DNA of 34,202 bases, from NCBI GenBank assembly GCA_021794475.1, contig JAJYQS010000024.1:1-34202 (forward strand). The letters are read 5' to 3'. Positions 11,939 to 29,558 of the stretch are shown here, piece after piece (positions within the stretch are counted from its first letter, which is position 1; every line of letters starts with the position of its first letter). Source of the DNA: a bacterium. Lineage in GTDB: Bacteria > SZUA-79 > Acidulodesulfobacterales > Acidulodesulfobacteraceae. The notes under the pieces were generated by a model that worked only from the letters and a program-made list of their open reading frames with translations, did no database searches and was not told where the DNA came from. The position numbers were made by a program, and so were the translations under genes.

Positions 11939-12172
11939 ATGTGCTTAGCTATACCGTCTAAGGTTGTTGAAATAGAAGAAAATGATTTTGCTATTGTCGA
12001 TACTATGGGTTCAAAAAGAAAAATATCAACGATGTTGATAGACGAACGGATTGATATCGGAGATTATTTATTGATTCATGTTGGATATGCAATGCAAAAA
12101 ATAAACGAAGACGAAGCGGAAGAGAGTTTGAAGTTATTTAGAGAAATTGAAAATAAATTAGATATAGATTGA
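11939..12172 (+). CDS. hypC: hydrogenase maturation chaperone HypC/HybG
   Basis: 77 residues, normal length. It begins MCLAIPSKV, and after Met removal Cys2 is the residue that carries the Fe(CN)2CO precursor together with HypD. VDTMGSKRKISTMLI and GDYLLIHVGYAMQKI are the family's OB-fold strands. It works with HypD to assemble the Fe(CN)2CO moiety and passes it to the large subunit. It starts 3 bp after the small membrane protein. hypD follows after 190 bp of A/T-rich sequence. Confidence 0.95.
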   Translation: MCLAIPSKVVEIEENDFAIVDTMGSKRKISTMLIDERIDIGDYLLIHVGYAMQKINEDEAEESLKLFREIENKLDID

Positions 12173-12362: not shown

Positions 12363-13484
12363 ATGTTTGATATTTATAACGATTTTAAAGAAAAAGAAAA
12401 TGTATTAAAATTGGTTTCACTTATAGACGAAGAGGTAGGCGGTTATAACAGAAAAGTTAAAATAATGGAGGTGTGCGGCGGTCATACACATTCTATTATG
12501 AAATACGGCCTCAATAGAATGCTTAGCCGCAGCGTAGATTTTATACACGGACCAGGATGTCCGGTTTGTGTGATGCCTGTTTCTAGAATTGATATTGCAA
12601 TATATTTGAGTAGATTAGAAAATGTCATATTGACAACGTATGGTGATATGATGCGGGTTCCCGGCAGCAAAAGTTCGCTTATTAAAGAAAGAGGAAACGG
12701 CGCAGATATAAGAATGGTCTATTCGCCTTTGGATATTATTAAATTAGCTCAAGAAAATAAAAATAAAAAAATAATTTTTTATGCTATAGGATTTGAAACA
12801 ACAGCTCCTATGACGGCAGCTTTAATAGAACAGATTAAAGTACATGGCATTGAAAATATTTTTTTTTATATAAACCATGTTTTAGTACCTCCGCCTATTG
12901 AAGCAATTCTTGATTTATGCGATTCCGAAATAGACGGTTTTGTGGGTCCGGGTCACGTCAGTGTTATAACCGGTGTCGAAATATATAATAATATTGTTGT
13001 TAAATATAAAAAACCTGTTGTAGTGTCTGGATTTGAACCGTTTGATATTCTCATGTCTGTATTAATGATTGCAAAACAAATAAATAGAAGATTTTCGAGA
13101 ATTGAAATAGGATATACGCGCGCTGTTAAACAAAATGGCAATAAAAAAGCTCAGGAACTTGTCAATAAATATTTCGAAATCAGAGATAGTTTTGAATGGA
13201 GAGGATTGGGCTATATTCCTAAAAGTGCCTTAAAATTAAAAGAAAAGTTTAAAGATATTGATGCAGAAAGCTTATTTAGAGATTATATTTATGATAATCT
13301 TGCTAACAATAAAGTAGTTGAGAATCAAGTTTGCAAATGCGGCGATATATTAAAAGGCAAACTTAAACCCAATGAATGTCCGCTTTTCAAAAAGTCCTGC
13401 ACTCCGGATAATCCTATAGGGGCATGTATGGTGTCGCATGAAGGAGCATGCGCCGCTTATTTTAAATATTTTGACGATTTTTAA
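12363..13484 (+). CDS. hypD: hydrogenase maturation protein HypD
   Basis: 373 residues, the usual length. It has VCGGHTHSIMKYG with Cys38, then HGPGCPVCVMP with Cys66/Cys69, which form the thiol-rich active site for cyanide transfer. FYAIGFETTAPMTA and GFVGPGHVSVITG are family blocks. The C-terminal [4Fe-4S] cysteines lie in KCGDILKGKLKPNEC, SCTPDNPIGACMVS and GACAAYF. HypD is the scaffold on which iron receives CN and CO together with HypC and HypE. No clear Shine-Dalgarno sequence precedes the ATG. Confidence 0.97.
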   Translation: MFDIYNDFKEKENVLKLVSLIDEEVGGYNRKVKIMEVCGGHTHSIMKYGLNRMLSRSVDFIHGPGCPVCVMPVSRIDIAIYLSRLENVILTTYGDMMRVPGSKSSLIKERGNGADIRMVYSPLDIIKLAQENKNKKIIFYAIGFETTAPMTAALIEQIKVHGIENIFFYINHVLVPPPIEAILDLCDSEIDGFVGPGHVSVITGVEIYNNIVVKYKKPVVVSGFEPFDILMSVLMIAKQINRRFSRIEIGYTRAVKQNGNKKAQELVNKYFEIRDSFEWRGLGYIPKSALKLKEKFKDIDAESLFRDYIYDNLANNKVVENQVCKCGDILKGKLKPNECPLFKKSCTPDNPIGACMVSHEGACAAYFKYFDDF

Positions 13485-13747: not shown

Positions 13748-14926
13748 ATGAAAAATGATAATTTTGAGAAAATCCTGATTTCACACGGCGGCGGCGGAAA
13801 AGAAACATCTGAATTAATAAAAGATATATTATGCAAGCATCTTTCTAATGATATTTTACTGAAAATGGAAGATGCCGCTATTATCTCGCCAAACGGTTCA
13901 AAAAAAATTGCATTTACAACAGATAGTTTCACGGTTACGCCTTTATTTTTTAATGGAGGCGATATAGGTAAGCTGTCTATTGCCGGAACGGTAAACGATT
14001 TATCCGTTATGGGTGCAAAACCGCTATTTTTAAGTTTAAGTTTAATTATAGAAGAGGGATTTTTAATAAGCGATTTGGAAAAAATTATATTATCTATAAA
14101 AGGTGAATTAGAAGTTTCCGGTGCCAAAATTGTCACCGGAGATACAAAAGTTGTACCAAAAGGCAAGGCAGACGGTATTTTTATAAATACATCAGGGATA
14201 GGTGAAGTAATTTATGAAAACTTATCTGCGTCCAATATAAATGACGGCGATATTATAATAGTTTCGGGAGAAATTGGTGATCACGGAGCTTCTATAATGT
14301 CATTAAGGGAAGGGATAGATATAGATACCGGAATAAAAAGCGATTGCGCAAGTTTGTGGAGTATGATAGATGATGTTTTGAAAAATGGATTTAATGTTAA
14401 GGCAATAAGGGACGCTACAAGAGGGGGATTGGCAGCAGTTCTCAATGAATGGGCTGAAAGCTCCAATGTCAATATATTTATAGATGAGGAAGCAATACCT
14501 GTTAAAGATAATGTCAGAGGATTTTGTGAATTCATAGGATTAGATCCTTATCAATTTGCCTGTGAAGGAAGGGTTGTTTTTGCGGTAAGCAATAACGATG
14601 CTGAAAAGCTGCTGAAAGTTCTCAGAGCTAACCCGTTAGGAGAAAAATCGCAAATAATAGGCTGTGCTTCTGTTGAATCCGATGAACCTTATAAATCTTA
14701 TGAATCCGATAGCGGCAGCAACAATAATCATAACATTAATAAGAACAATTGTAAAAACAATAACAACGATAATAATAACAATAATAATAGCGCAGCTAAT
14801 AATGACGATTTATGCGAATTAAAAAATTATCGTAACTTCAATAAAAAAGTTATTATTAAAAATATTTACGGAATCTCAAGATTCTTGGATGTTCCATCAG
14901 GAGAACTTCTTCCGCGTATCTGTTGA
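13748..14926 (+). CDS. hypE: hydrogenase maturation protein HypE, with Asn-rich insertion
   Basis: 392 residues against about 330-350 usually. It opens with ISHGGGGKETSELI and has TTDSFTVTPLFFNGGDIGKL, VVSGEIGDHGASIM-like IVSGEIGDHGASIM and RDATRGGLAAVLNEWA, all standard for this PurM-like enzyme. The C-terminus ends in PRIC, whose Cys carries the thiocarboxamide that HypE dehydrates to cyanide for the iron ligands. Residues about 318-355 are a run of Asn with some Lys, Asp and Ser, encoded by AAT/AAC repeats, inserted between the ATP-binding core and the tail. The tail is intact and in frame, so the protein is probably active. The start lies in an AAT-repeat tract without a visible Shine-Dalgarno sequence. 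Confidence 0.96.
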   Translation: MKNDNFEKILISHGGGGKETSELIKDILCKHLSNDILLKMEDAAIISPNGSKKIAFTTDSFTVTPLFFNGGDIGKLSIAGTVNDLSVMGAKPLFLSLSLIIEEGFLISDLEKIILSIKGELEVSGAKIVTGDTKVVPKGKADGIFINTSGIGEVIYENLSASNINDGDIIIVSGEIGDHGASIMSLREGIDIDTGIKSDCASLWSMIDDVLKNGFNVKAIRDATRGGLAAVLNEWAESSNVNIFIDEEAIPVKDNVRGFCEFIGLDPYQFACEGRVVFAVSNNDAEKLLKVLRANPLGEKSQIIGCASVESDEPYKSYESDSGSNNNHNINKNNCKNNNNDNNNNNNSAANNDDLCELKNYRNFNKKVIIKNIYGISRFLDVPSGELLPRIC

Positions 14927-15171: not shown

Positions 15172-17817
15172 ATGATTAAACGAGCAGTAATAAATATAAC
15201 GGGAATTGTCCAGGGGGTCGGATTTAGACCTTTTATATATAGACTTTCTCAAAAGTATTCTGTAAACGGATATATAATTAATAATATTTCCGGTGTAAAA
15301 ATTGAAGCTGAAGCAGATGAGAAGAAATTAAATAATTTTATTAACGATATTTATGCTAATAAACCTTCACTGGCAGTAATTTACGATATTGATTATATTT
15401 ACGAAGAACCTTCAGGATTTAATAATTTTTCAATACTTGAATCGACAAATAATATTCAAAAGACGGTTCAAATCAGAAAAGCCGCTGTTTCGCCTGATAT
15501 TGCTACCTGCGATAATTGTATATCGGAACTTTTAAACCCTGCAGACAGGAGATTTCTATACCCTTTTATAAATTGCACAGATTGCGGACCGAGGTTTACT
15601 ATAACCAAAAAATTGCCGTATGACAGAGCTAATACTACAATGAATCAATTTGAAATGTGTAATGAATGTCAAGGTGAATACGCCGACCCTTCCAATAGAA
15701 GATTTCATGCTCAACCTAATGCGTGTTTTAATTGCGGACCGGAAATTGAATTTATTGATAAAAACGGCAAACAATATGATAACGATATTTTTAATAAAGT
15801 TGCAGCTCTGATAAAAAACGGCGATATAGTCGGCGTTAAGGGTATTGGAGGATTTCATATAATGTGCGATGCCGCAAACGAGGATGCGGTGAATAGATTA
15901 AGGGTAATAAAAAATCGTCCTGAAAAACCGTTTGCAGTTATGTTCAAAAATATCCCAGAGATATTAAAATATGCGAATGCAACTAAATCTGAAATTGATT
16001 TATTAAACTCAAAAGAAAGACCGATTGTGCTGCTTAAATATCATGGAGGTCTTGCAAAAAATGTAAATTTCGCTCTTACCGCTGTAGGCGCATTTTTGCC
16101 TTATACTCCTATTCAACATATAATTTTTTCAATTGTAAATATACCTATCATAGCAACATCCGGAAATATTTCAGATGAGCCGATAATATCCGATGATAAT
16201 GAAGCAAGGTTAAAACTGGGGCCATTTGTAGATGGTCTATTGATTCACAAACGGCAGATATACCGAAAATGCGATGATTCTGTTATCAAAATCGTTGCTG
16301 TTAATAACTATTATGGTTGTGATAATGATAATAACTATAATAATGATAATAACAATAATAACGATAACAACTACAGTATTGCCTATACTGATACTGATAC
16401 TGATACTGATAACAACTTAAATATACTAAATATAACAATAAGGCGGTCTCGCGGATTTGTTCCTGCTGCGATTAATGTTCCCTGCAGACTAAAAAGAAAT
16501 ATAATCGCAGTCGGTTCAAATCTAAAAAATACGTTTGCTTACGGCATGAAAGACGATGATAAAATTATTTTAAGTCCGCATATAGGAGATTTAACAAATA
16601 TAAATTCATATGATTATTTTTGCAAATGTATTGAAGAAACAATAAGATTTTATGATTTAAAGCCTGATGCTATCGTCAGTGATATGCATCCGGAATATGA
16701 AAGTACGAAATTTGCAGAAGGATTTGCTAAGAAATTTGACATTGTCCATATCAAACTTCAGCATCATAAAGCGCATATAATTTCTTGTATGGCAGAAAAT
16801 TTATTATCTTTAAAACAAGATATTCTCGGAATTTCATGGGACGGAACAGGTTACGGAGAAGACCGGACAATATGGGGAGGAGAGTTTTTTGAAGGTAATT
16901 ATTTAAATCTTGAACATATCGGAAATTTTAAAAAATTTAAACTCATCGGAAGCGAAATGGCTATCAGACAGCCGCAAAGAATTTTTTTAAGCCTTATGTT
17001 TGAAATATTAGGCGAAAAAATTATTGATATGTACGGCAATAATGATAATGATAGAAAAGAAATAATTGAAAAAATTACAGGTTTTTCTTCAGAAGAAATT
17101 CGCAAATTATATCATATATGGAAAAACGATATTAATTCGCCTGAAACTTCATCTGTAGGAAGGTTATTTGATGCCGTTGCATGTATGTGCGGTTTTAAAG
17201 GCAAAATTACATATGAAGGGGAGGCTGCCGTATATTTAGAAAATTTAGCATCGTCGCTGCCGGAACTAATGCCGGAATATTTATCAGTTTTGGGCTCAGG
17301 CGGAACAGGCGAATTTTTAAAAAATGAATATACCGAAAAAAGCGGCAAGTATAAATATAATTATAGCATCGTCTACGCTAATAATACATTTACTGATAAA
17401 ATTAATATTAAAAATACAAATTCTAATTTTATAATTGATTGGAGTCCTATAATTTTAAATATTTTTGATGAACTTATCGAATTAAAGAAAAAATTAAATA
17501 AAAATAATACTGAATTATATAGCAATAACAATAATAATACTAACGGCAATGACGACAGCAGCAATAATAGCGCAAATTTAAATATTATAGCTTACAAATT
17601 TATAAATACTCTGGCTTCAATCGTTATAGATATATCATTATCAACGAAAAAAAAATATATTTGCTTATCTGGCGGAGTATTTCAGAATAGCATACTTACA
17701 GGTAAATTATATTATGCATTAAAAAAAAGAGGTCTGTCTGTTTTTATAAACCAAAAAGTTCCGATAAATGACGGAGGTATTTCATTAGGTCAAGCTTTCT
17801 ATGGCGGCATTATATAA
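15172..17817 (+). CDS. hypF: carbamoyltransferase HypF, with two Asn-rich insertions
   Basis: 881 residues against about 750-800 usually. The N-terminal acylphosphatase domain has VQGVGFRPFIYRLS. Two zinc fingers follow, CDNCISELL...CTDCGPRF and CNECQGEY...CFNCGPEI. Next is the YrdC-like domain (VGVKGIGGFHIMCDA and PEKPFAVM) and then the Kae1-like domain (VSDMHPEYEST, LQHHKAHIISCMAE, SWDGTGYGEDRTIWGGEF). HypF turns carbamoyl phosphate and ATP into carbamoyl-adenylate and loads HypE Cys. Insertion 1 (about residues 379-422) is Asn/Asp-rich and includes four ACTGAT units (16387-16410) encoding Thr-Asp repeats. Insertion 2 (about 777-804) is Asn-rich. Both lie between conserved blocks and keep the frame. 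Confidence 0.96.
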   Translation: MIKRAVINITGIVQGVGFRPFIYRLSQKYSVNGYIINNISGVKIEAEADEKKLNNFINDIYANKPSLAVIYDIDYIYEEPSGFNNFSILESTNNIQKTVQIRKAAVSPDIATCDNCISELLNPADRRFLYPFINCTDCGPRFTITKKLPYDRANTTMNQFEMCNECQGEYADPSNRRFHAQPNACFNCGPEIEFIDKNGKQYDNDIFNKVAALIKNGDIVGVKGIGGFHIMCDAANEDAVNRLRVIKNRPEKPFAVMFKNIPEILKYANATKSEIDLLNSKERPIVLLKYHGGLAKNVNFALTAVGAFLPYTPIQHIIFSIVNIPIIATSGNISDEPIISDDNEARLKLGPFVDGLLIHKRQIYRKCDDSVIKIVAVNNYYGCDNDNNYNNDNNNNNDNNYSIAYTDTDTDTDNNLNILNITIRRSRGFVPAAINVPCRLKRNIIAVGSNLKNTFAYGMKDDDKIILSPHIGDLTNINSYDYFCKCIEETIRFYDLKPDAIVSDMHPEYESTKFAEGFAKKFDIVHIKLQHHKAHIISCMAENLLSLKQDILGISWDGTGYGEDRTIWGGEFFEGNYLNLEHIGNFKKFKLIGSEMAIRQPQRIFLSLMFEILGEKIIDMYGNNDNDRKEIIEKITGFSSEEIRKLYHIWKNDINSPETSSVGRLFDAVACMCGFKGKITYEGEAAVYLENLASSLPELMPEYLSVLGSGGTGEFLKNEYTEKSGKYKYNYSIVYANNTFTDKINIKNTNSNFIIDWSPIILNIFDELIELKKKLNKNNTELYSNNNNNTNGNDDSSNNSANLNIIAYKFINTLASIVIDISLSTKKKYICLSGGVFQNSILTGKLYYALKKRGLSVFINQKVPINDGGISLGQAFYGGII

Positions 17818-18002: not shown

Positions 18003-18473
18003 TTATTGCAATGGTATAATATTAAATGACTTAAGTTCTTTTAAAATATCATCTGCGACTGACGAAATGCAAAGCTTTAAAGGCTCCGTCAGCTCCATAG
18101 ATACATTGTCGCAGTTTTGGGGCACAACCGCAAAAAATATTAACTTTGGAGTAAATCCTGTAAGACCGCACATAGTTATAACATCAATAAATTCTACCTC
18201 ATGTGCTGTTTTTTTCATAAGATTTGCAGGTAGGTCATCATCGTGAAATTTGTAAATGCTGCCCGGCTTATCATCGGTTTTAAGCGCATCTATAATTATT
18301 GCAGTTTCTAGATTCAATATTGTATCAAGCAATCCGTACCCCATTGTGCTGCCGTCTATCAGCTGAACTTCGGCAGAATTAAATGAATAATTCTTATTAA
18401 GAAAATTTATTACATGGACGCCAAACCCTTCGTCCTGCAGCAATATATTCCCTATTCCGATGACTCCTACCAT
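18003..18473 (-). CDS. hyaD: [NiFe]-hydrogenase maturation protease (HyaD/HybD type)
   Basis: 156 residues, normal length. It begins GVIGIGNILLQDEGFGVHVI, where the Glu after Asp is the first nickel-sensing ligand. A central Asp lies in IIIDALKTDD, and His in KTAHEVEFID supplies the third. The enzyme checks that nickel is in place and then cuts the large-subunit C-terminus after the DPCxxCxxH motif. The matching large subunit in this operon has a 15-residue tail to remove. It is the last gene of the leftward structural operon and ends facing hypF. The exact paralogue name (HyaD, HybD, HupD) is a choice of convenience. Confidence 0.93.
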   Translation of the reverse strand: MVGVIGIGNILLQDEGFGVHVINFLNKNYSFNSAEVQLIDGSTMGYGLLDTILNLETAIIIDALKTDDKPGSIYKFHDDDLPANLMKKTAHEVEFIDVITMCGLTGFTPKLIFFAVVPQNCDNVSMELTEPLKLCISSVADDILKELKSFNIIPLQ

Positions 18474-18574: not shown

Positions 18575-18907
18575 TCAATTTTTTTTTATAACACAGGGGG
18601 CAAATTTTACTTTATCATTTAAATCACCTATCCCTGAAATATCAAGGATATCTTCTCTTGATGAGTTAAAAAAATTAGTTTTTAATATTTCTCCTGTTTT
18701 AAAACAGTAATAAATTTTTTGAGCCTTAAATTTTCTATATAGAGCATATTCTTCAATATCAACGCGGGCGCCGGAAAAGACAAGCGATCCGCAATTTTCA
18801 AAAAACTCGCTATAATTATTATAGTCTTCTTTTTTTAAATTTTCATCGTAAGAACTATTTTCTTTAAGACTGTAATAAATATATCCTGCTATTATATTTT
18901 TCTCCAT
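18575..18907 (-). CDS. hypothetical protein in the hydrogenase operon
   Basis: 110 residues, acidic and Tyr/Asn-rich, with no signal peptide or membrane span. Visible segments are AGYIYYSLKENSSYDENLKK, CGSLVFSGARVDIEEYALY and AQKIYYCFKTGEILKTNF. There are three Cys, not in a metal-binding pattern. I recognise no family. It sits between the cytochrome b gene and the protease, same strand, with spacers of 297 and 101 bp. Position suggests an accessory maturation or assembly role, which is inference only. No strong Shine-Dalgarno sequence precedes the ATG, yet the frame is uninterrupted and has protein-like composition. Confidence 0.6.
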   Translation of the reverse strand: MEKNIIAGYIYYSLKENSSYDENLKKEDYNNYSEFFENCGSLVFSGARVDIEEYALYRKFKAQKIYYCFKTGEILKTNFFNSSREDILDISGIGDLNDKVKFAPCVIKKN

Positions 18908-19204: not shown

Positions 19205-19984
19205 TTAGTCTGTGTCATCTTCTTTTAAGTTATCCCTTGAATATTTATAGCCGCCAAACGGAATCAATATATCGCCTTCTTTCCATACAATAGAACGCCA
19301 CACTTCTATATAAATATGGTAAAATATAAATATTATAATTAACCATGTTATAAACAAATGTGTTAACGTTACCCCTGTTAATCCGCCAAAGACCCATAGT
19401 GTCCAGTCTGTACAAATGTGAAGCATAGCCGGCCACCATGCGCCTACCGCAGATGTTCCGGTAAAAGAAGCAACATACATTTGAAAACCGGTTGCCATTT
19501 GCAATAAAAGCAGAAGATGAAAAAAAGTAAATATAATTGCATTAAGAGGGTCTTGATATTTGCCGGTTTCCGGTTTATTTTTCAGGGTAAAATAATGCTT
19601 AATCATCTTGTACATTTCATTAATTTTATTTCCGAAAGGCAAAAAACTTTTATATAAAGGTTCTTTTGTAGAAAAAAAGGCTAGATAAAGCCACGCAAAA
19701 AATGACACGTCGATCAGCACCGCACCTATAAAATGGAATTCACGCATCCACGTCATTATAAATGCCTGATAAGTTTCTCCGGAATTTAGTACGCCGCTTA
19801 CGGGAGAATCCGCCTGCGTCGGGGTTTTGCCGAATATCAGAAAGGGATATGCTATATACATGCCTGTGATTATTTGATTTATTATAGATAGAAAAAGCGT
19901 CCAGTGTATAATTCTTTTAATTACGGTCATTCTATGAACAACTTTTAAATCTGAATCGTTTCCAGAACTGTTTATATTTCCCAT
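19205..19984 (-). CDS. hyaC: [NiFe]-hydrogenase cytochrome b subunit
   Basis: 259 residues; HyaC/CybH family members are about 220-260. GAGGA lies 7 nt before the ATG. Four or more membrane spans carry His residues placed as heme b ligands: KRIIHWTLFLS, REFHFIGAVLID, FTFFHLLLLLQMATGFQM and HLFITWLIIIFIFYHIYIEVW, with MLHICTDW between. The protein anchors the periplasmic hydrogenase and passes electrons from the small subunit's distal cluster to quinone. The gene follows the large subunit by 162 bp. That spacer contains a pentanucleotide repeat. Confidence 0.92.
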   Translation of the reverse strand: MGNINSSGNDSDLKVVHRMTVIKRIIHWTLFLSIINQIITGMYIAYPFLIFGKTPTQADSPVSGVLNSGETYQAFIMTWMREFHFIGAVLIDVSFFAWLYLAFFSTKEPLYKSFLPFGNKINEMYKMIKHYFTLKNKPETGKYQDPLNAIIFTFFHLLLLLQMATGFQMYVASFTGTSAVGAWWPAMLHICTDWTLWVFGGLTGVTLTHLFITWLIIIFIFYHIYIEVWRSIVWKEGDILIPFGGYKYSRDNLKEDDTD

Positions 19985-20120: not shown

Positions 20121-20160
20121 CTTATCTTATCTTATCTTATCTTATCTTATCTTATCTTAT
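20121..20160. repeat. pentanucleotide microsatellite, 8 x CTTAT
   Basis: Eight uninterrupted CTTAT units. Read on the minus strand they are TAAGATAAG..., and the last codons and TAA stop of the hydrogenase large subunit lie inside them (stop at 20149-20147). Most of the array is in the spacer before the cytochrome b gene. Confidence 0.95.
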
Positions 20161-21832
20161 ATTTTTTTACTTCTTTAGTCTTAGGGTCGATTATATGAAC
20201 CCCGCATGCTATGCATGGGTCAAACGAATGAACCGTCCTTAAAATTTCTAAAGGTTGAGATAAATTAGCAAGTTTTACTCCTATTAAAGATTCTTCATAA
20301 GCGCCCCGCTGATTAAACGCATCTCTCGGCGACCCGTTCCATGTTGACGGAACAACAATTTGATAATGATTAATCATCTTATTTTTTATGCTTACCCAGT
20401 GTCCCACTGCGCCTCTTGGAGCAGCATCGAGACCAATGCCGATGATTTCTTTATCGGGCATTTCATAATTTGTCCAAGTAGTCTGGTCTATAGCCATATT
20501 TTTTATTAATTCCATAGTCCACGGTTCAAGAGCATCGGCTAAATATTTTGCTTCAATAGCCCTTGCAGCCGTTCTGCCTAATGTTGAAAATAGAGCGCTT
20601 ACCGGCATATTGGAAGTTTTCAGCACATAATCGACTAATGATTTGATTTGCTTATTACCTTTAGCATAAGCGACAAGAGTTCTTGCAAGCGGACCGACTT
20701 CCATAGGTTTATTTTCATATCTTGGAGCCTTTAACCAACTGTATTTACCTTTTTCCTGAACGCTGCCGTCTTTCTTTAAACCCGTATATTCAGGATCTGT
20801 AATACCGACGGTAGGATTTAAACCGACTTTCTCATCGGGATATTTATACCATGAATGTGTTACAAATTCGGTTATATTTTTTTCATTTACATCGTGAACT
20901 TTTGATAAATCTCTATTAAAAATCACCCCTCTGTCTAAATAAAAATTATTTGGGTCTTCATCGTCAGTCTGAGGAAAACCGCCGTATGCCAGATAATTTT
21001 TTAATCCTCCGCCGATGCCTGCAATTGCCTCTTCTTTATAATATTTAGCGGCAAGCAGAATGTCTGGAATATATGCGTTATTGATAAAATCTGTTATTTT
21101 GCGCGTTCTGAAAAGTATGTCGTCCATTCTTTGCGGATTCAGTAAATCTGCAACTACCGAAATTCCGCCTACGACTATAGTTTGGGAATGCGGGTCTTTA
21201 GAACCCAAAATCGCTATTATCTGAGCAGGAATTCTTAAAACATCAAGATTATCTAAATAATGCGACGCTATTAAAAGATTTCCTTCAGGCGGTAATTTAT
21301 ATGCCGGATTTCCCCAGTACCCATTCGCAAAAGGTCCGAGCTGACCGGATGAAACAAATGATTTTAAGCGTTTTTTTACATCTTCAAATCTTGCCAAACT
21401 TGCATTATAAGGATTATCAGTGTATGCATAAGCTAAGTCCATTGCTTTTTTAGGGTCGGCATCAAGAGCAGAAACAATATCAACCCAGTCAAACCCGGCT
21501 AATTGATAAAAATGAATCATATGGTCCTGAACAAATTGAGCGCCTTTTAAAATATTTCTAGCTAATCTTGCATTCTTTGGAGGATGAATGCCGAGAGCAT
21601 TTTCTATTGCCCATGTTGCAGTTTCATAATGAGTATATGTACAGACTCCGCAAATTCTTTGCGCGAATAAACCTGCGTCTTCAGGAGCTCTGCCCTGAAG
21701 TATCAGTTCAATTCCTCTAAACAGTGTTGCCGAAGAGTATGCATCGCTTATTGTATCTCCGTTCATTTCTACTTCAATTCTTAAATGACCTTCTATCCTT
21801 GTAATCGGGTCAACTATTATTCGTTTAGACAT
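20147..21832 (-). CDS. hyaB: [NiFe]-hydrogenase large subunit
   Basis: 561 residues, normal length. GAGGA lies 6 nt ahead of the ATG. The N-terminal nickel pair is in RICGVCTYTH (Cys61, Cys64) and the C-terminal pair in DPCIACGVH (Cys540, Cys543, His546). Together they hold the Ni-Fe(CN)2CO site. The 15 residues after His546 (IIDPKTKEVKKYKIR) form the tail removed by the protease. DPITRIEGHLRIEVE near the start is the group 1 signature. The protein oxidises H2 and is co-exported with the small subunit. Its final Lys-Ile-Arg and stop codon are encoded by the CTTAT repeat. It starts 43 bp after the small-subunit gene. Confidence 0.97.
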   Translation of the reverse strand: MSKRIIVDPITRIEGHLRIEVEMNGDTISDAYSSATLFRGIELILQGRAPEDAGLFAQRICGVCTYTHYETATWAIENALGIHPPKNARLARNILKGAQFVQDHMIHFYQLAGFDWVDIVSALDADPKKAMDLAYAYTDNPYNASLARFEDVKKRLKSFVSSGQLGPFANGYWGNPAYKLPPEGNLLIASHYLDNLDVLRIPAQIIAILGSKDPHSQTIVVGGISVVADLLNPQRMDDILFRTRKITDFINNAYIPDILLAAKYYKEEAIAGIGGGLKNYLAYGGFPQTDDEDPNNFYLDRGVIFNRDLSKVHDVNEKNITEFVTHSWYKYPDEKVGLNPTVGITDPEYTGLKKDGSVQEKGKYSWLKAPRYENKPMEVGPLARTLVAYAKGNKQIKSLVDYVLKTSNMPVSALFSTLGRTAARAIEAKYLADALEPWTMELIKNMAIDQTTWTNYEMPDKEIIGIGLDAAPRGAVGHWVSIKNKMINHYQIVVPSTWNGSPRDAFNQRGAYEESLIGVKLANLSQPLEILRTVHSFDPCIACGVHIIDPKTKEVKKYKIR

Positions 21833-21875: not shown

Positions 21876-23216
21876 TTATTTTTTGTCTTTGTTATTGTCA
21901 TTGTCTTTGCCGTTGTTTTTTTCTTTTTCTTTATTGTTCTTTCTTCTTTTGACCCCTGTGTATATTGCGTGGGCAGCCATTCCTACGCCGGCAGCGCCAA
22001 ATAGGGCGACGCCGAATTCATCGGCTGTTGCTTCAACGCCCGGTATAAATATTTTAGCATCTAAATTTGGTTTTTCAAAAGGCGTCATCCTGTCCCAAAA
22101 AGCCGGTTCTGAACACCCAATGCAGCCGTGTCCGGCTCTCATTGGAAAACTCATATCCTGATTATATTGAGCAACAGTGCAGTTATTCCATGTAAAAGGA
22201 CCTTTGCAGCCCATCATATAAAGGCAATATTGCTTTTTTGCTCCGTCATCGCCCCATTGTTTTACATATTCGCCTGCTTCAAAATGACCCCTTCTGTAAC
22301 AGTTGTCATGCAGTCTTCCTGAATAAGCCCAGAGCGGTCTTCCTAAGCTGTCAAGCATAGGAGCTTTACCGATTAATATATATTCAACTAATGTGCCGAC
22401 TAAATTTACAGGATTAGCAGGGCATGCAGGTATATTAATAACCTGCCTGTTCGTAACGGAACTTAGTCCGACTGAACCTGTGGGATTTGGATATGCTGCC
22501 GGAATACCGCCGTAAGAAGCGCAGTTTCCGACGGCAATAATAACGCCTGCATTTTTTGCGGTTGCCTTAGTAATTTCAAGTCCCGTTTTGCCTTTTGCGC
22601 CTATTGTGAGAAATTTGCCGTTCATACCGGTAGGAATTGCACCTTCGACGACAAGAATATATTTACCTTTATATTTTTTTACAGTTTCATCTCTCCTTGC
22701 TTCAGCCTGATAGCCGGCAGGCACCATTATAGATTCCATATAATCAACGCTGACATAATTCAATATAATTTCTGCAGGGGTAGGGTGCGCAGTTCTCAGA
22801 AAAGCTTCCGTATTCCCCATGCAATCACTCATATCAAGCCAAATAAAGGGCGTTCTCGTTAAAATATTTGCTGCTCTGGCAACCCTCGGTGCAAAAATCG
22901 TAGGAAGCATAAGCGCCGAAGTGAGGAGGGCTGTCCACTGAATGAATTCTCTTCGTGAAATGCTGCTCGCAGAAAATACGTTGTTAAAATTTTCATCAAT
23001 ATCTTTTTGACTTTTAAAATATTCTTTTTCAAGATTGGTTAGGCGGGAATCTACTATATTTAAAGCTTCATCCGGGTCATCCGCAATATTTCTCAGAGGG
23101 TCCCATTTAAAATTTGTCTTATCGGTTTTATCATCATATTCATCAGAGCAAGCTCGATCGCTATTTTCTATTTTTTTTCCTTTAGCGGTCTTATTTTTTT
23201 CATCACCCTTTCCCAT
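21876..23216 (-). CDS. hyaA: [NiFe]-hydrogenase small subunit, with long pre-Tat extension
   Basis: 446 residues from ATG 23216, chosen because AGGAGG (23230-23225) lies 8 nt upstream; TTG 23222 is less likely. Residues 1-87 are hydrophilic and precede a Tat signal (SRREFIQW, Arg88-Arg89, core to APRVARA at about 115). The Fe-S domain follows. The proximal site reads DCMGNTEA (Cys132, Asn135), so the usual second Cys of CxxC is Asn; the other two proximal Cys are in GNCASYGGIPAA and ACPANP. Distal and medial ligands are normal: HDNCYRRGHF, CLYMMGCKGP, NNC and CIGC. The C-terminus has a membrane anchor (FGVALFGAAGVGMAAHAIY) and an Asn/Lys/Asp tail. The position equivalents of the two extra Cys of O2-tolerant enzymes are Gly. 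Confidence 0.95.
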   Translation of the reverse strand: MGKGDEKNKTAKGKKIENSDRACSDEYDDKTDKTNFKWDPLRNIADDPDEALNIVDSRLTNLEKEYFKSQKDIDENFNNVFSASSISRREFIQWTALLTSALMLPTIFAPRVARAANILTRTPFIWLDMSDCMGNTEAFLRTAHPTPAEIILNYVSVDYMESIMVPAGYQAEARRDETVKKYKGKYILVVEGAIPTGMNGKFLTIGAKGKTGLEITKATAKNAGVIIAVGNCASYGGIPAAYPNPTGSVGLSSVTNRQVINIPACPANPVNLVGTLVEYILIGKAPMLDSLGRPLWAYSGRLHDNCYRRGHFEAGEYVKQWGDDGAKKQYCLYMMGCKGPFTWNNCTVAQYNQDMSFPMRAGHGCIGCSEPAFWDRMTPFEKPNLDAKIFIPGVEATADEFGVALFGAAGVGMAAHAIYTGVKRRKNNKEKEKNNGKDNDNNKDKK

Positions 23217-23353
23217 TGCCAATTCCTCCTAAATTAGATATAAATTTGCTATATTTCAATCAACAATAATTAACCAATAATTAATAAGAAATAAGAAATA
23301 ATTAATAACTAATAATTAATAAGAAATAATAACCAATAATAACCGATTAAAAT

Positions 23354-23684: not shown

Positions 23685-23924
23685 ATGCATGAACTATCAA
23701 TAGCATTAGAAGTAATTGAAATGCTTGAAAAAAATAATTATTTAGAAGATATCAGAATAGTTAATGCGATTAATTTAACGATTGGTAATTATTCAGGGAT
23801 TGATAAAAATTATCTTGAATTTGCTTTTCAAAATTTAGGCGACGATAGGTTTTCTGAAGTTATTTTAAATTGTGATTATAATGAGACTGATGATATTAAA
23901 GTTAATGAAATAATAGCGGATTAA
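23685..23924 (+). CDS. hypA: HypA-like nickel chaperone lacking the zinc domain
   Basis: 79 residues against about 113-120 for HypA. The N-terminus MHELSIALEVIEMLE keeps Met1-His2-Glu3, the nickel-binding end. LTIGNYSGIDKNYLEFAFQNL matches the family's central part. The zinc domain, normally with two CxxC pairs, is absent. Only Cys63 remains. The last residues DDIKVNEIIAD match the strand that in HypA comes after the zinc domain, so this looks like an internal deletion of about 35-40 residues rather than a cut end. No frameshifted continuation with CxxC was found downstream. hypB follows after 136 bp. HypA hands nickel to the large subunit with HypB. Confidence 0.85.
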   Translation: MHELSIALEVIEMLEKNNYLEDIRIVNAINLTIGNYSGIDKNYLEFAFQNLGDDRFSEVILNCDYNETDDIKVNEIIAD

Positions 23925-24060: not shown

Positions 24061-24771
24061 ATGGAGATTGAAAAATTGTATCCTGAACATAAAAAAATTT
24101 CTATTCAAAAAAACGCATTAGAAGCTAATGAAAATATTGCAAAATCTAACAAATCAAAATTTGAAGCAAGTAAAATATTTGTTGTGAATTTATTAAGCTC
24201 TCCAGGTTCAGGTAAGACATCCATGATAGAACGTATTGTGCCATTTTTAAAAGATTTAAATGTTAAAGTTTGTGTTATAGAGGGCGACGTGGAAACAGAT
24301 TTGGATAAAAAAAGAATAGACGCGTTAGGCATTCCTTCTTACCAAATTATAACAAAAGGCACATGTCATCTTGATGCTAAAATGATAGATAAAGCTCTTG
24401 TAAGTTCAAATTTTGATTTAATTAATTCAGATATTTTATTTATAGAAAATGTTGGCAATTTGGTATGTCCGACTTCTTTTAATCTTGGCGAAGATTTTAA
24501 AATTGTAGTTTTGTCAATTACGGAAGGAGATGATAAACCGTTAAAATACCCTGCGGCTTTTTATAAATCTGATATTATGATTATTAATAAAATTGATTTA
24601 TTAAATGTACTTGATTCCAGCATAAAAACAATTAAAGAAAATGCATTGTCAATAAATAATAAATTGAAAATATTTGAAATTTCGTGTAAAACAAATGAAG
24701 GCATTAAAGAATTAGCCAATTATTTTATGGAACAGATCATCAATAAACGTGAAAACAATGAAACTAAATAA
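24061..24771 (+). CDS. hypB: hydrogenase nickel-incorporation GTPase HypB
   Basis: 236 residues. The P-loop is SSPGSGKTSMIE, switch I region VIEGDVETDLDKKRI, and the metal-binding motif GTCHLDAKMID supplies the Cys and His that bind nickel or zinc at the G-domain dimer interface. FIENVGNLVCP and NKIDLL complete the GTPase signature. There is no His-rich N-terminus and no N-terminal CxxCGC motif, so it is a plain, non-nickel-storing form. GTP hydrolysis drives nickel transfer to HypA or the large subunit. nfo follows after only 21 bp and is probably co-transcribed. Confidence 0.95.
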   Translation: MEIEKLYPEHKKISIQKNALEANENIAKSNKSKFEASKIFVVNLLSSPGSGKTSMIERIVPFLKDLNVKVCVIEGDVETDLDKKRIDALGIPSYQIITKGTCHLDAKMIDKALVSSNFDLINSDILFIENVGNLVCPTSFNLGEDFKIVVLSITEGDDKPLKYPAAFYKSDIMIINKIDLLNVLDSSIKTIKENALSINNKLKIFEISCKTNEGIKELANYFMEQIINKRENNETK

Positions 24772-27530: not shown

Positions 27531-29558
27531 ATGAAACTAATCATTGCCGAAAAACCGTCCGTAGCCAAAGCTATTGCATCTTTTTTAGGCTCTTCAGCGC
27601 GGCATGACGGATACTTCGAAACTAAAGATTACACTATAACGTTTTGTTACGGCCATGTTTTAGAGCAGCTTGGTCCTAAAGAATATCTCGGCAGACCCGT
27701 CAATATAAACGACGCTCCGCTGATACCGGAAAAATGGCAGCTAAAAGTAAAAGAATCCGCCTCCGCCCAGTTTAAAATTATTAAATCGTTAATAGCAAAG
27801 GCTTCTGAAATAATAAACTTGGGAGACCCTGACAGGGAAGGTCAGCTCTTAGTCGACGAACTTATTGAATACTGCGGTTATAAAGGAACGGTCAAAAGAT
27901 TATGGCTGAACGCCTTAGACGATGAATCCGTCGCTAATTCATTTAAAAAACTCGAAGACAATTCTAAATATATTAATTTTAAGAACTGCGCTTTAGCCCG
28001 CCAGAGATTAGACTGGCTAATCGGTTTAAACGCTTCTATCGTTGCCACCAAAAAAACCAATCAATTATTGTCTATCGGAAGAGTGCAGACGCCTACGCTG
28101 TCGTTAATAGTAGAACGCGATTTAAAGATAGAAAACTTTAAGCCTCAGGATTTTTACGAAGTCTTTGTCGATATAGAACATATAAAGCCTTTTACGGTCA
28201 AATGGATTAAAGGCGATATTAAAACGGACGAAGAAAACCGCATTACGGACAAGCAGGCTGCCGAGAAATTAGCAGAAATAGTAAAAAACACTACCGGCAA
28301 AGTAATTAATTGCGAAAGCAAAAAAGGAACTTCTAAGGCTCCTAATCCGTATAATCTTGCAAAACTGACCAAAGACGCTTCGGCTAATTTCGGCTTTTCC
28401 GCAGATACGGTATTAAAATTAGCCCAGAGTCTATACGAAAAGGCTTTTACGACATACCCGAGAGTTGACAGCGAATATCTGCCGGAAGAACAGTTTGCCG
28501 GCAGCAAAAAAATACTGATGAACTTTAATCTGCCTGAAACAATAGATTTTAATAAAAAGCATCCCGCATGGAACACAAAAAAGGTCGATGCCCATCACGC
28601 CATAATACCGACGGTTAAAAAAGCTTTTGGACTTACTCCGGGCGAACAGAATTTATATAGCTTAATAGCGGACAGGTTCATTAATCTGTTTATGCCGGAA
28701 CAGGAGTTTATAAATAAATTAATAGAAATGGATATTAAAAACAATATATTTTCCGTTAAGAAAAAAATAATAACCAATCCCGGATGGTCTGACGAAAAAT
28801 CTCAGGATGACTTGCCGGACGTAAAAATAAACGATATCTTAAATACGGCGGGTTCCAGAATGGAATCTAAGCAGACCACTCCGCCCGTGAGGTTTACGGA
28901 CGGAACTTTAATAGCCGCAATGGCTAATATTCATAAATACACGGAAGACGACAAAGACATAGAAATATTAAAAGAGGTAAAAGGCATAGGAACAAGCGCC
29001 ACTAGAGCCAATATAATAGAAACTCTTATAAAGCGCGGATACATAGAAAGACAGAAAAAAAATCTTATTTCCGTTGATTTGGGAAGAAAGCTTATAAACG
29101 ATTTAAAAGGCGCCGAAAATATTAAACTCTTAACTTCCGCTCATTTAACCGCAGATATGGAAGAAGAGCTGAAATTAATAGAAAAAGGCGAAAAAACAAT
29201 AGACGAAATACTAAGTAGAGGCATAGCAGCGACTAAAGAACTAACCGCAAGCCTTAAATCCCTGCCTTTTTCCATTAAAGGCGTTCCGTATAATAACCCG
29301 AACGCTAAGGTAATCGGCAAATGCAGCTGCGGAGGAGATATAACGGAATTTTCAAAAGGATATAAATGCAATAAGTGCGGAGCTATCGTATGGAAGGAGT
29401 TTTCAGGAAAGAAACTTTCAATTAGAACAGCCGTCAGTCTTTTGAACAATAAAACAGTGTCATTGAAAGGTTTCACGTCAAAAGCGGGTAAAAAATACGA
29501 TGCCGTTTTGCGTTATAATTTTGATACAAAAAAAATAGCGTTTGTTAATAACAAATGA
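27531..29558 (+). CDS. topB: DNA topoisomerase III (type IA)
   Basis: 675 residues from ATG 27531, preceded by AGGA. An upstream ATG at 27486 adds 15 non-homologous residues. The Toprim domain begins KLIIAEKPSVAKAIASFLG and has INLGDPDREGQLLVDELI. The active Tyr is in TTYPRVDSEYLPEEQF. Other blocks are LALARQRLDWLIGLNASIV-like CALARQRLDWLIGLNAS, VDAHHAIIPT and GIGTSATRANIIETLIKRGYI. The C-terminal zinc ribbon is CSCGGDITEFSKGYKCNKCG. It decatenates and relaxes DNA. By eye its codons use more G and C than the hyp or rarA genes, which could mean transfer; TopB is also carried by conjugative elements. No other such genes are present. Confidence 0.93.
   Translation: MKLIIAEKPSVAKAIASFLGSSARHDGYFETKDYTITFCYGHVLEQLGPKEYLGRPVNINDAPLIPEKWQLKVKESASAQFKIIKSLIAKASEIINLGDPDREGQLLVDELIEYCGYKGTVKRLWLNALDDESVANSFKKLEDNSKYINFKNCALARQRLDWLIGLNASIVATKKTNQLLSIGRVQTPTLSLIVERDLKIENFKPQDFYEVFVDIEHIKPFTVKWIKGDIKTDEENRITDKQAAEKLAEIVKNTTGKVINCESKKGTSKAPNPYNLAKLTKDASANFGFSADTVLKLAQSLYEKAFTTYPRVDSEYLPEEQFAGSKKILMNFNLPETIDFNKKHPAWNTKKVDAHHAIIPTVKKAFGLTPGEQNLYSLIADRFINLFMPEQEFINKLIEMDIKNNIFSVKKKIITNPGWSDEKSQDDLPDVKINDILNTAGSRMESKQTTPPVRFTDGTLIAAMANIHKYTEDDKDIEILKEVKGIGTSATRANIIETLIKRGYIERQKKNLISVDLGRKLINDLKGAENIKLLTSAHLTADMEEELKLIEKGEKTIDEILSRGIAATKELTASLKSLPFSIKGVPYNNPNAKVIGKCSCGGDITEFSKGYKCNKCGAIVWKEFSGKKLSIRTAVSLLNNKTVSLKGFTSKAGKKYDAVLRYNFDTKKIAFVNNK

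Follow-up and report, generated by a model that had tools for sequence, protein, structure and literature searches.

Can a HypA protein that has no zinc domain still deliver nickel to a [NiFe]-hydrogenase? A 2019 review ascribes a zinc site to HypA proteins without exception (PMC7055735), and a 2025 review repeats the same two-domain description (PMC12134894). The stretch of DNA analysed here (34,202 nucleotides, referred to as the window) encodes a HypA of 79 residues from which this domain is missing. Searches of the open-access literature turned up no description of a zinc-less HypA, and the natural zinc-less form is accordingly taken here as an unreported variant of a known family.

The short hypA gene and its locus

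The hypA open reading frame is intact, running from an ATG start to a TAA end over 79 codons. The product, MHELSIALEVIEMLEKNNYLEDIRIVNAINLTIGNYSGIDKNYLEFAFQNLGDDRFSEVILNCDYNETDDIKVNEIIAD (79 aa), contains a single Cys (C63), which is not conserved across the family, and a sole His (His2); it has no CxxC motif, where the canonical HypA zinc site needs two. PF01155 matches at 39.1 bits, above its gathering cut-off of 28.9, with coverage limited to profile positions 1–57 of 112. The TIGR00100 equivalog, which represents Escherichia coli HypA/HybF, scores 32 bits (E 9.9e-8), short of its cut-off of 88.1, since the window protein lacks the C-terminal half; membership of the same family is evident from the core sequence. 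A first-pass annotation, made from the sequence by itself, had described a 79-residue product with an MHE start, a HypA core and one Cys, and these results bear it out. By sequence, fold and context the window protein is a HypA-core protein rather than a canonical HypA, whose usual definition includes the zinc site (PMC7055735).

The features of the locus are as follows (positions are those of the window).

11939..12172, + strand: hypC (MCLAIPSKVV start, position; matches HypC of other hyp loci)
12363..13484, + strand: hypD (TIGR00075, E 2.2e-148)
13748..14926, + strand: hypE (sequence, position; BLAST finds HypE in other hyp loci)
15172..17817, + strand: hypF (TIGR00143, 722 bits, joined pieces)
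18003..18473, − strand: HyaD/HybD-type maturation protease (TIGR00072, 116 bits, cut-off 47.45)
19205..19984, − strand: hydrogenase b-type cytochrome (TIGR02125, 111.5 bits, slightly below the cut-off of 121.5)
20147..21832, − strand: [NiFe]-hydrogenase large subunit (PF00374, 670 bits; NF033181, 522.1 bits, below the equivalog cut-off of 600)
21876..23222, − strand: [NiFe]-hydrogenase small subunit with a twin-arginine-like SRREFIQW stretch (TIGR00391, 405.9 bits)
23685..23924, + strand: zinc-less hypA, 79 aa (PF01155, family alignment, AF2, PDB fold matches)
23685..23693, + strand: MHE nickel-binding N-terminus, M1 H2 E3 (invariant in 22/22 family members)
23802..23804, + strand: D40 codon, counterpart of the Helicobacter pylori HypA nickel ligand D40 (invariant in 22/22)
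23880..23894, + strand: junction at the site of the absent zinc domain, residues 66–70, turn between strands 60–66 and 71–78 (alignment, AF2 strands)
24061..24771, + strand: hypB, GTPase with CHLDA metal site (TIGR00073, 245.3 bits, cut-off 121.2)

The hypC, hypD, hypE and hypF genes lie upstream of hypA on the same strand, and the hydrogenase block (small subunit, large subunit, cytochrome, protease) is divergent from hypA-hypB. HypB aligns with the HypB structures of H. pylori, A. fulgidus and M. jannaschii. The large subunit retains the RICGVC and DPCIACGVH motifs and a short C-terminal peptide, and should therefore need nickel insertion and cleavage as usual, both being established maturation steps for this family; it is presumed to be the nickel acceptor. 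With hypB, hypCDEF, the protease and the hydrogenase all present in the window, the initial proposal of a minimal nickel chaperone within a full hyp set fits.

Several other features of the locus were recorded. HypE and HypF contain Asn/Asp-rich low-complexity runs (NNNNNDNNNN, TDTDTDTD; window 14750–14900 and 16300–16450) and are otherwise normal enzymes, HypF matching TIGR00143 in two pieces that flank its run. About 85 residues precede SRREFIQW in the small subunit, which begins with TTG, and the true start may be further in. A 110-aa open reading frame (18575–18907, − strand) between the protease and cytochrome genes has no NCBIfam match at E 1e-4.

The missing zinc domain and the predicted fold

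Alignment of the short HypA forms with 38 zinc-bearing HypA sequences shows that 33 columns are absent, from just before the first CxxC up to just before the last strand. The first-pass annotation had read this as loss of the CxxC...CxxC domain with retention of the closing strand, and both observations stand: DIKVNEIIAD resumes the alignment after the 33-column gap, matching the last strand of full-length HypA, and is predicted to form the closing strand (residues 71–78).

An AlphaFold (AF2) model, for which the input was a 22-row family alignment, has a pLDDT of 90.6 and an H-E-H-E-E order of elements (helix 2–16, strand 26–34, helix 41–49, strand 60–66, strand 71–78). The core is closed in the model by a four-residue tight turn at the site of the zinc domain, as had been anticipated for a core lacking the zinc loop. 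When the model was searched against the PDB, the best 14 matches were all HypA chains, 6g81 being best by E-value and 3a43_B giving a TMq of 0.76; the alignments to these two entries extend over about 110 columns and span the gap to the last strand. Unlike the fold search, phmmer with the window sequence against PDB sequences returned no HypA match.

H. pylori HypA (PDB entries 6g81, 2kdx) shares with the window protein the MHE start, D40, the core fold and a HypB partner. Its M1, H2, E3 and D40 are the proposed nickel ligands (PMC5557546); the equivalence of D40 is our own positional match within the ungapped N-terminal half. The H. pylori zinc domain (C74/C77/C91/C94), which with its flanking His residues responds to pH and nickel (PMC5557546, PMC7055735), has no counterpart in the window protein. 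Thermococcus kodakarensis HypA (PDB entries 3a43, 5aun, 5yxy) is alike in its core fold (TMq up to 0.76), and differs in possessing a zinc domain and a domain-swapped zinc dimer, both absent from the 79-residue protein. In the T. kodakarensis HypAB complex His98 of HypA is an additional nickel ligand (PMC7055735), and this residue too lacks a counterpart in the window HypA.

Conservation in the family and occurrence beyond it

The genome of origin is a draft (1.83 Mb, 92% complete, 111 contigs), and a short gene in a fragmented assembly might reflect an assembly, sequencing or gene-calling error. The family sample comprises 30 genomes of Candidatus Acidulodesulfobacterales relatives, the own genome counted. 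Among these, hypA is present in 22, and its product has 79 residues with zero indels in 22/22, at 46–100% identity to the window HypA and with an intact CxxC domain in none. Separate metagenome-assembled genomes with the 79-residue form include LSA5.bin79, YF2.bin53 and SKS5.bin53; Ca. Acididesulfobacter diazotrophicus AP1, of a genus placed in Ca. Acidulodesulfobacteriota (NCBI), carries it as well. Searching the six-frame translation of the own genome with PF01155 yielded one HypA, that of the window, and four further matches elsewhere that are weak, below cut-off and confined to the zinc ribbon. One of these four, at 29304, falls within the 690-aa topoisomerase-like open reading frame of the window. 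No second hypA was found by this search or in the relatives, and the missing zinc domain is absent from the reading frames around hypA, frameshifted or otherwise. The recurrence of one product in 22 genomes from separate assemblies, together with the six-frame search, rules out an assembly or frameshift artefact, and the chance that error of any kind explains the short gene is negligible.

The family genes are also under constraint. MHE, D40 and the core GxYSG..D.NYL..AF.N are invariant in 22/22, the median pairwise dN/dS is 0.16 (unsaturated pairs), and pN/pS is alike, at 0.29–0.31, in core, junction and final strand; family hypA is under purifying selection. The same 22 genomes contain hypB, and the remaining eight have neither gene. 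In every family locus that is long enough, hypA-hypB adjoin the divergent genes for small subunit, large subunit, cytochrome and protease; HypB keeps the CHLDA motif in all loci, and the large subunit is full length wherever a contig includes the whole gene. The short HypA is thus an old, maintained trait of the family. One member, G001, has a gene for a urease alpha subunit and, close by, one for a UreG-like GTPase (C8:59314–63130), the sole urease found in the family, and has only zinc-less HypA; a rule that lack of urease makes the zinc domain dispensable is accordingly not general.

On wider sampling the protein proves not to be a one-off. A survey of 389 genomes found HypA in 195, after exclusion of G238 as a rubrerythrin-like false match: 17 from the window's family, 16 others with zinc-less HypA only, and 162 with zinc-region matches. 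The last group was classed by matches through the zinc region, Cys pairs being read directly in the 38 aligned sequences, a few of which come from outside the survey set. The 16 represent 14 families other than that of the window, and G066, outside the survey count, adds one more with zinc-less HypA only, giving at least 15. These genes lie mostly within hyp or hydrogenase loci. The proteins (e.g., L107, L028, L099, L115) have 80–98 residues; like the window HypA they are the sole HypA type and share its excision boundary, and they are distant from it in sequence. The zinc-less HypA of L128, whose lineage has no HypB, is predicted to adopt the same H-E-H-E-E fold (AF2, pLDDT 91.5).

HypB is absent from 11/16 zinc-less and 34/162 zinc-bearing genomes (Fisher p 1.5e-4, relatedness ignored). 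The idea that zinc loss simply follows HypB loss describes a trend in other lineages, but fails in the window's family, where HypB is kept in 17/17 survey genomes. The absence of HypB alongside zinc-less HypA points to an alternative nickel route in some lineages. The 34 survey genomes with zinc-bearing HypA and no recognisable HypB were noted separately, so HypB-independent nickel insertion may be common. An acid habitat is an attractive reason for the zinc-less form and fits acid-mine bacteria, but the form also occurs in many other families.

In five genomes, zinc-less hypA adjoins a [NiFe] large subunit (RICGIC...DPCISCxxH) and a HypC/HydE-like radical SAM fusion of about 435 aa: L126:5990–9430 (G380), L127:6312–9648 (G362), L128:6203–9593 (G163), L131:4734–8080 (G287) and L134:6846–10300 (G248). 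The L128 fusion protein matches TIGR03956 at 249.6 bits. HypB, HypD and HypF are absent in all five. The [NiFe] cofactor may thus be assembled there independently of HypD and HypF, a route for which no published account was found. G362 has two divergent zinc-less HypA paralogues (L127:8099–8341 and L132:7496–7753), one beside the fusion and the other alone beside a 709-aa open reading frame.

As for origin, the internal deletion first proposed describes the alignment well and is plausible, though ancestral absence of the domain, and one or several origins, would also fit the tree and the AU test. All zinc-less forms could instead belong to one ancient sub-family spread by descent and gene transfer, which may even have arisen before HypA acquired its zinc domain. 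Every zinc-less form is cut at the same place, a single zinc-less clade is not rejected by the AU test (p 0.47), and the window's family groups weakly with the four other HypB-keeping zinc-less forms. Independent losses would, however, favour the same structural boundary, and the free core tree (80 columns, poor resolution) scatters the zinc-less forms and implies at least three switches between the zinc-bearing and zinc-less states. We regard a single origin as a tentative possibility, compatible with a zinc-free chaperone.

Proposed nickel transfer by a zinc-free core

The window HypA is very probably a working zinc-free nickel chaperone, whose MHE core alone would take nickel from HypB to the large subunit. 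This HypA is the only one in the genome, hypA and hypB co-occur in 22/22 genomes, the pair is linked to the hydrogenase, MHE and D40 are invariant, dN/dS is low and the fold is that of HypA. From this we infer nickel binding, HypB docking and delivery. The T. kodakarensis HypAB and HypA–large-subunit complexes provide a structural model for the relay. HypB, with its GTPase and intact CHLDA metal site, would hand Ni(II) to the M1/H2/E3 site of HypA, of which D40 is probably also part. The HypA core would then dock on the apo large subunit, already holding Fe(CN)2CO, and free the nickel into the hydrogenase active site, after which the HyaD-type protease would trim the large-subunit C-terminus. 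The zinc domain would go unused, its place taken by the tight turn that joins strands 60–66 and 71–78. In the T. kodakarensis HyhL–HypA structure (PMC7055735) the nickel sites of the two proteins are close, and the N-terminal tail of HyhL is in contact with that of HypA; hand-over by the core is therefore possible in principle.

In H. pylori, the zinc site responds to pH and nickel load and tunes nickel affinity, and Cys mutants of the site have 9–60% of wild-type hydrogenase activity (PMC5557546, PMC7055735); the zinc domain therefore matters in zinc-bearing HypA. With the domain gone, any pH or nickel gating would have to come from HypB, or there would be none. No expression data for these hyp genes were found, and the acid mine drainage paper is silent on hydrogenase (PMC6776010).

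The zinc function might still be provided in trans, whether from a separate zinc-ribbon protein or from HypB, in which case the system would not be zinc-free. The weak matches to the PF01155 zinc region elsewhere in the genome would suit such a helper, but the best of them, L002, looks like the zinc ribbon at the C-terminus of an unrelated protein of helix-turn-helix type, and a hypA-free genome has it too. Across the 22 loci, no conserved small open reading frame with two CxxC motifs lies within 4 kb of hypA; the few two-CxxC matches nearby are rubredoxin-like or antisense and are not shared. Nor does the aligned part of HypB contain an extra Cys-rich domain. With no conserved candidate in these searches, zinc in trans is rejected as highly improbable.

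It is also unlikely, if slightly less so, that the short HypA is a relic or has taken a new role, as a HypB scaffold or regulator, with nickel coming from HypB alone. The protein has lost half of the features conserved in HypA, and some of the bacteria whose HypA is zinc-less lack HypB altogether, so that the usual relay has already changed in them. A relic or a new role is difficult to reconcile with purifying selection over a five-genus divergence, an invariant MHE, an exact length and strict co-occurrence with hypB and hydrogenase.

Taking the zinc-free chaperone together with its wider distribution, we favour, with some reserve, the broader conclusion that the zinc domain is inessential to nickel insertion, and that a widespread, unrecognised class of zinc-free HypA exists (an 80-residue MHE core, some with HypB and many without), a subset of which has a pathway without HypB, HypD and HypF. 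The zinc-site Cys residues matter for H. pylori HypA (PMC5557546); zinc-free HypA occurs in the window's family and at least 15 others. A natural zinc-free HypA found across a whole family allows the role of the zinc domain to be asked, whether in pH or nickel gating, partner choice or fold stability, and offers a very small scaffold on which to study nickel hand-over. Hydrogenase appears to be loaded with nickel by a zinc-less HypA in this acid-mine bacterium, throughout its family and in at least fifteen bacterial families unrelated to it.
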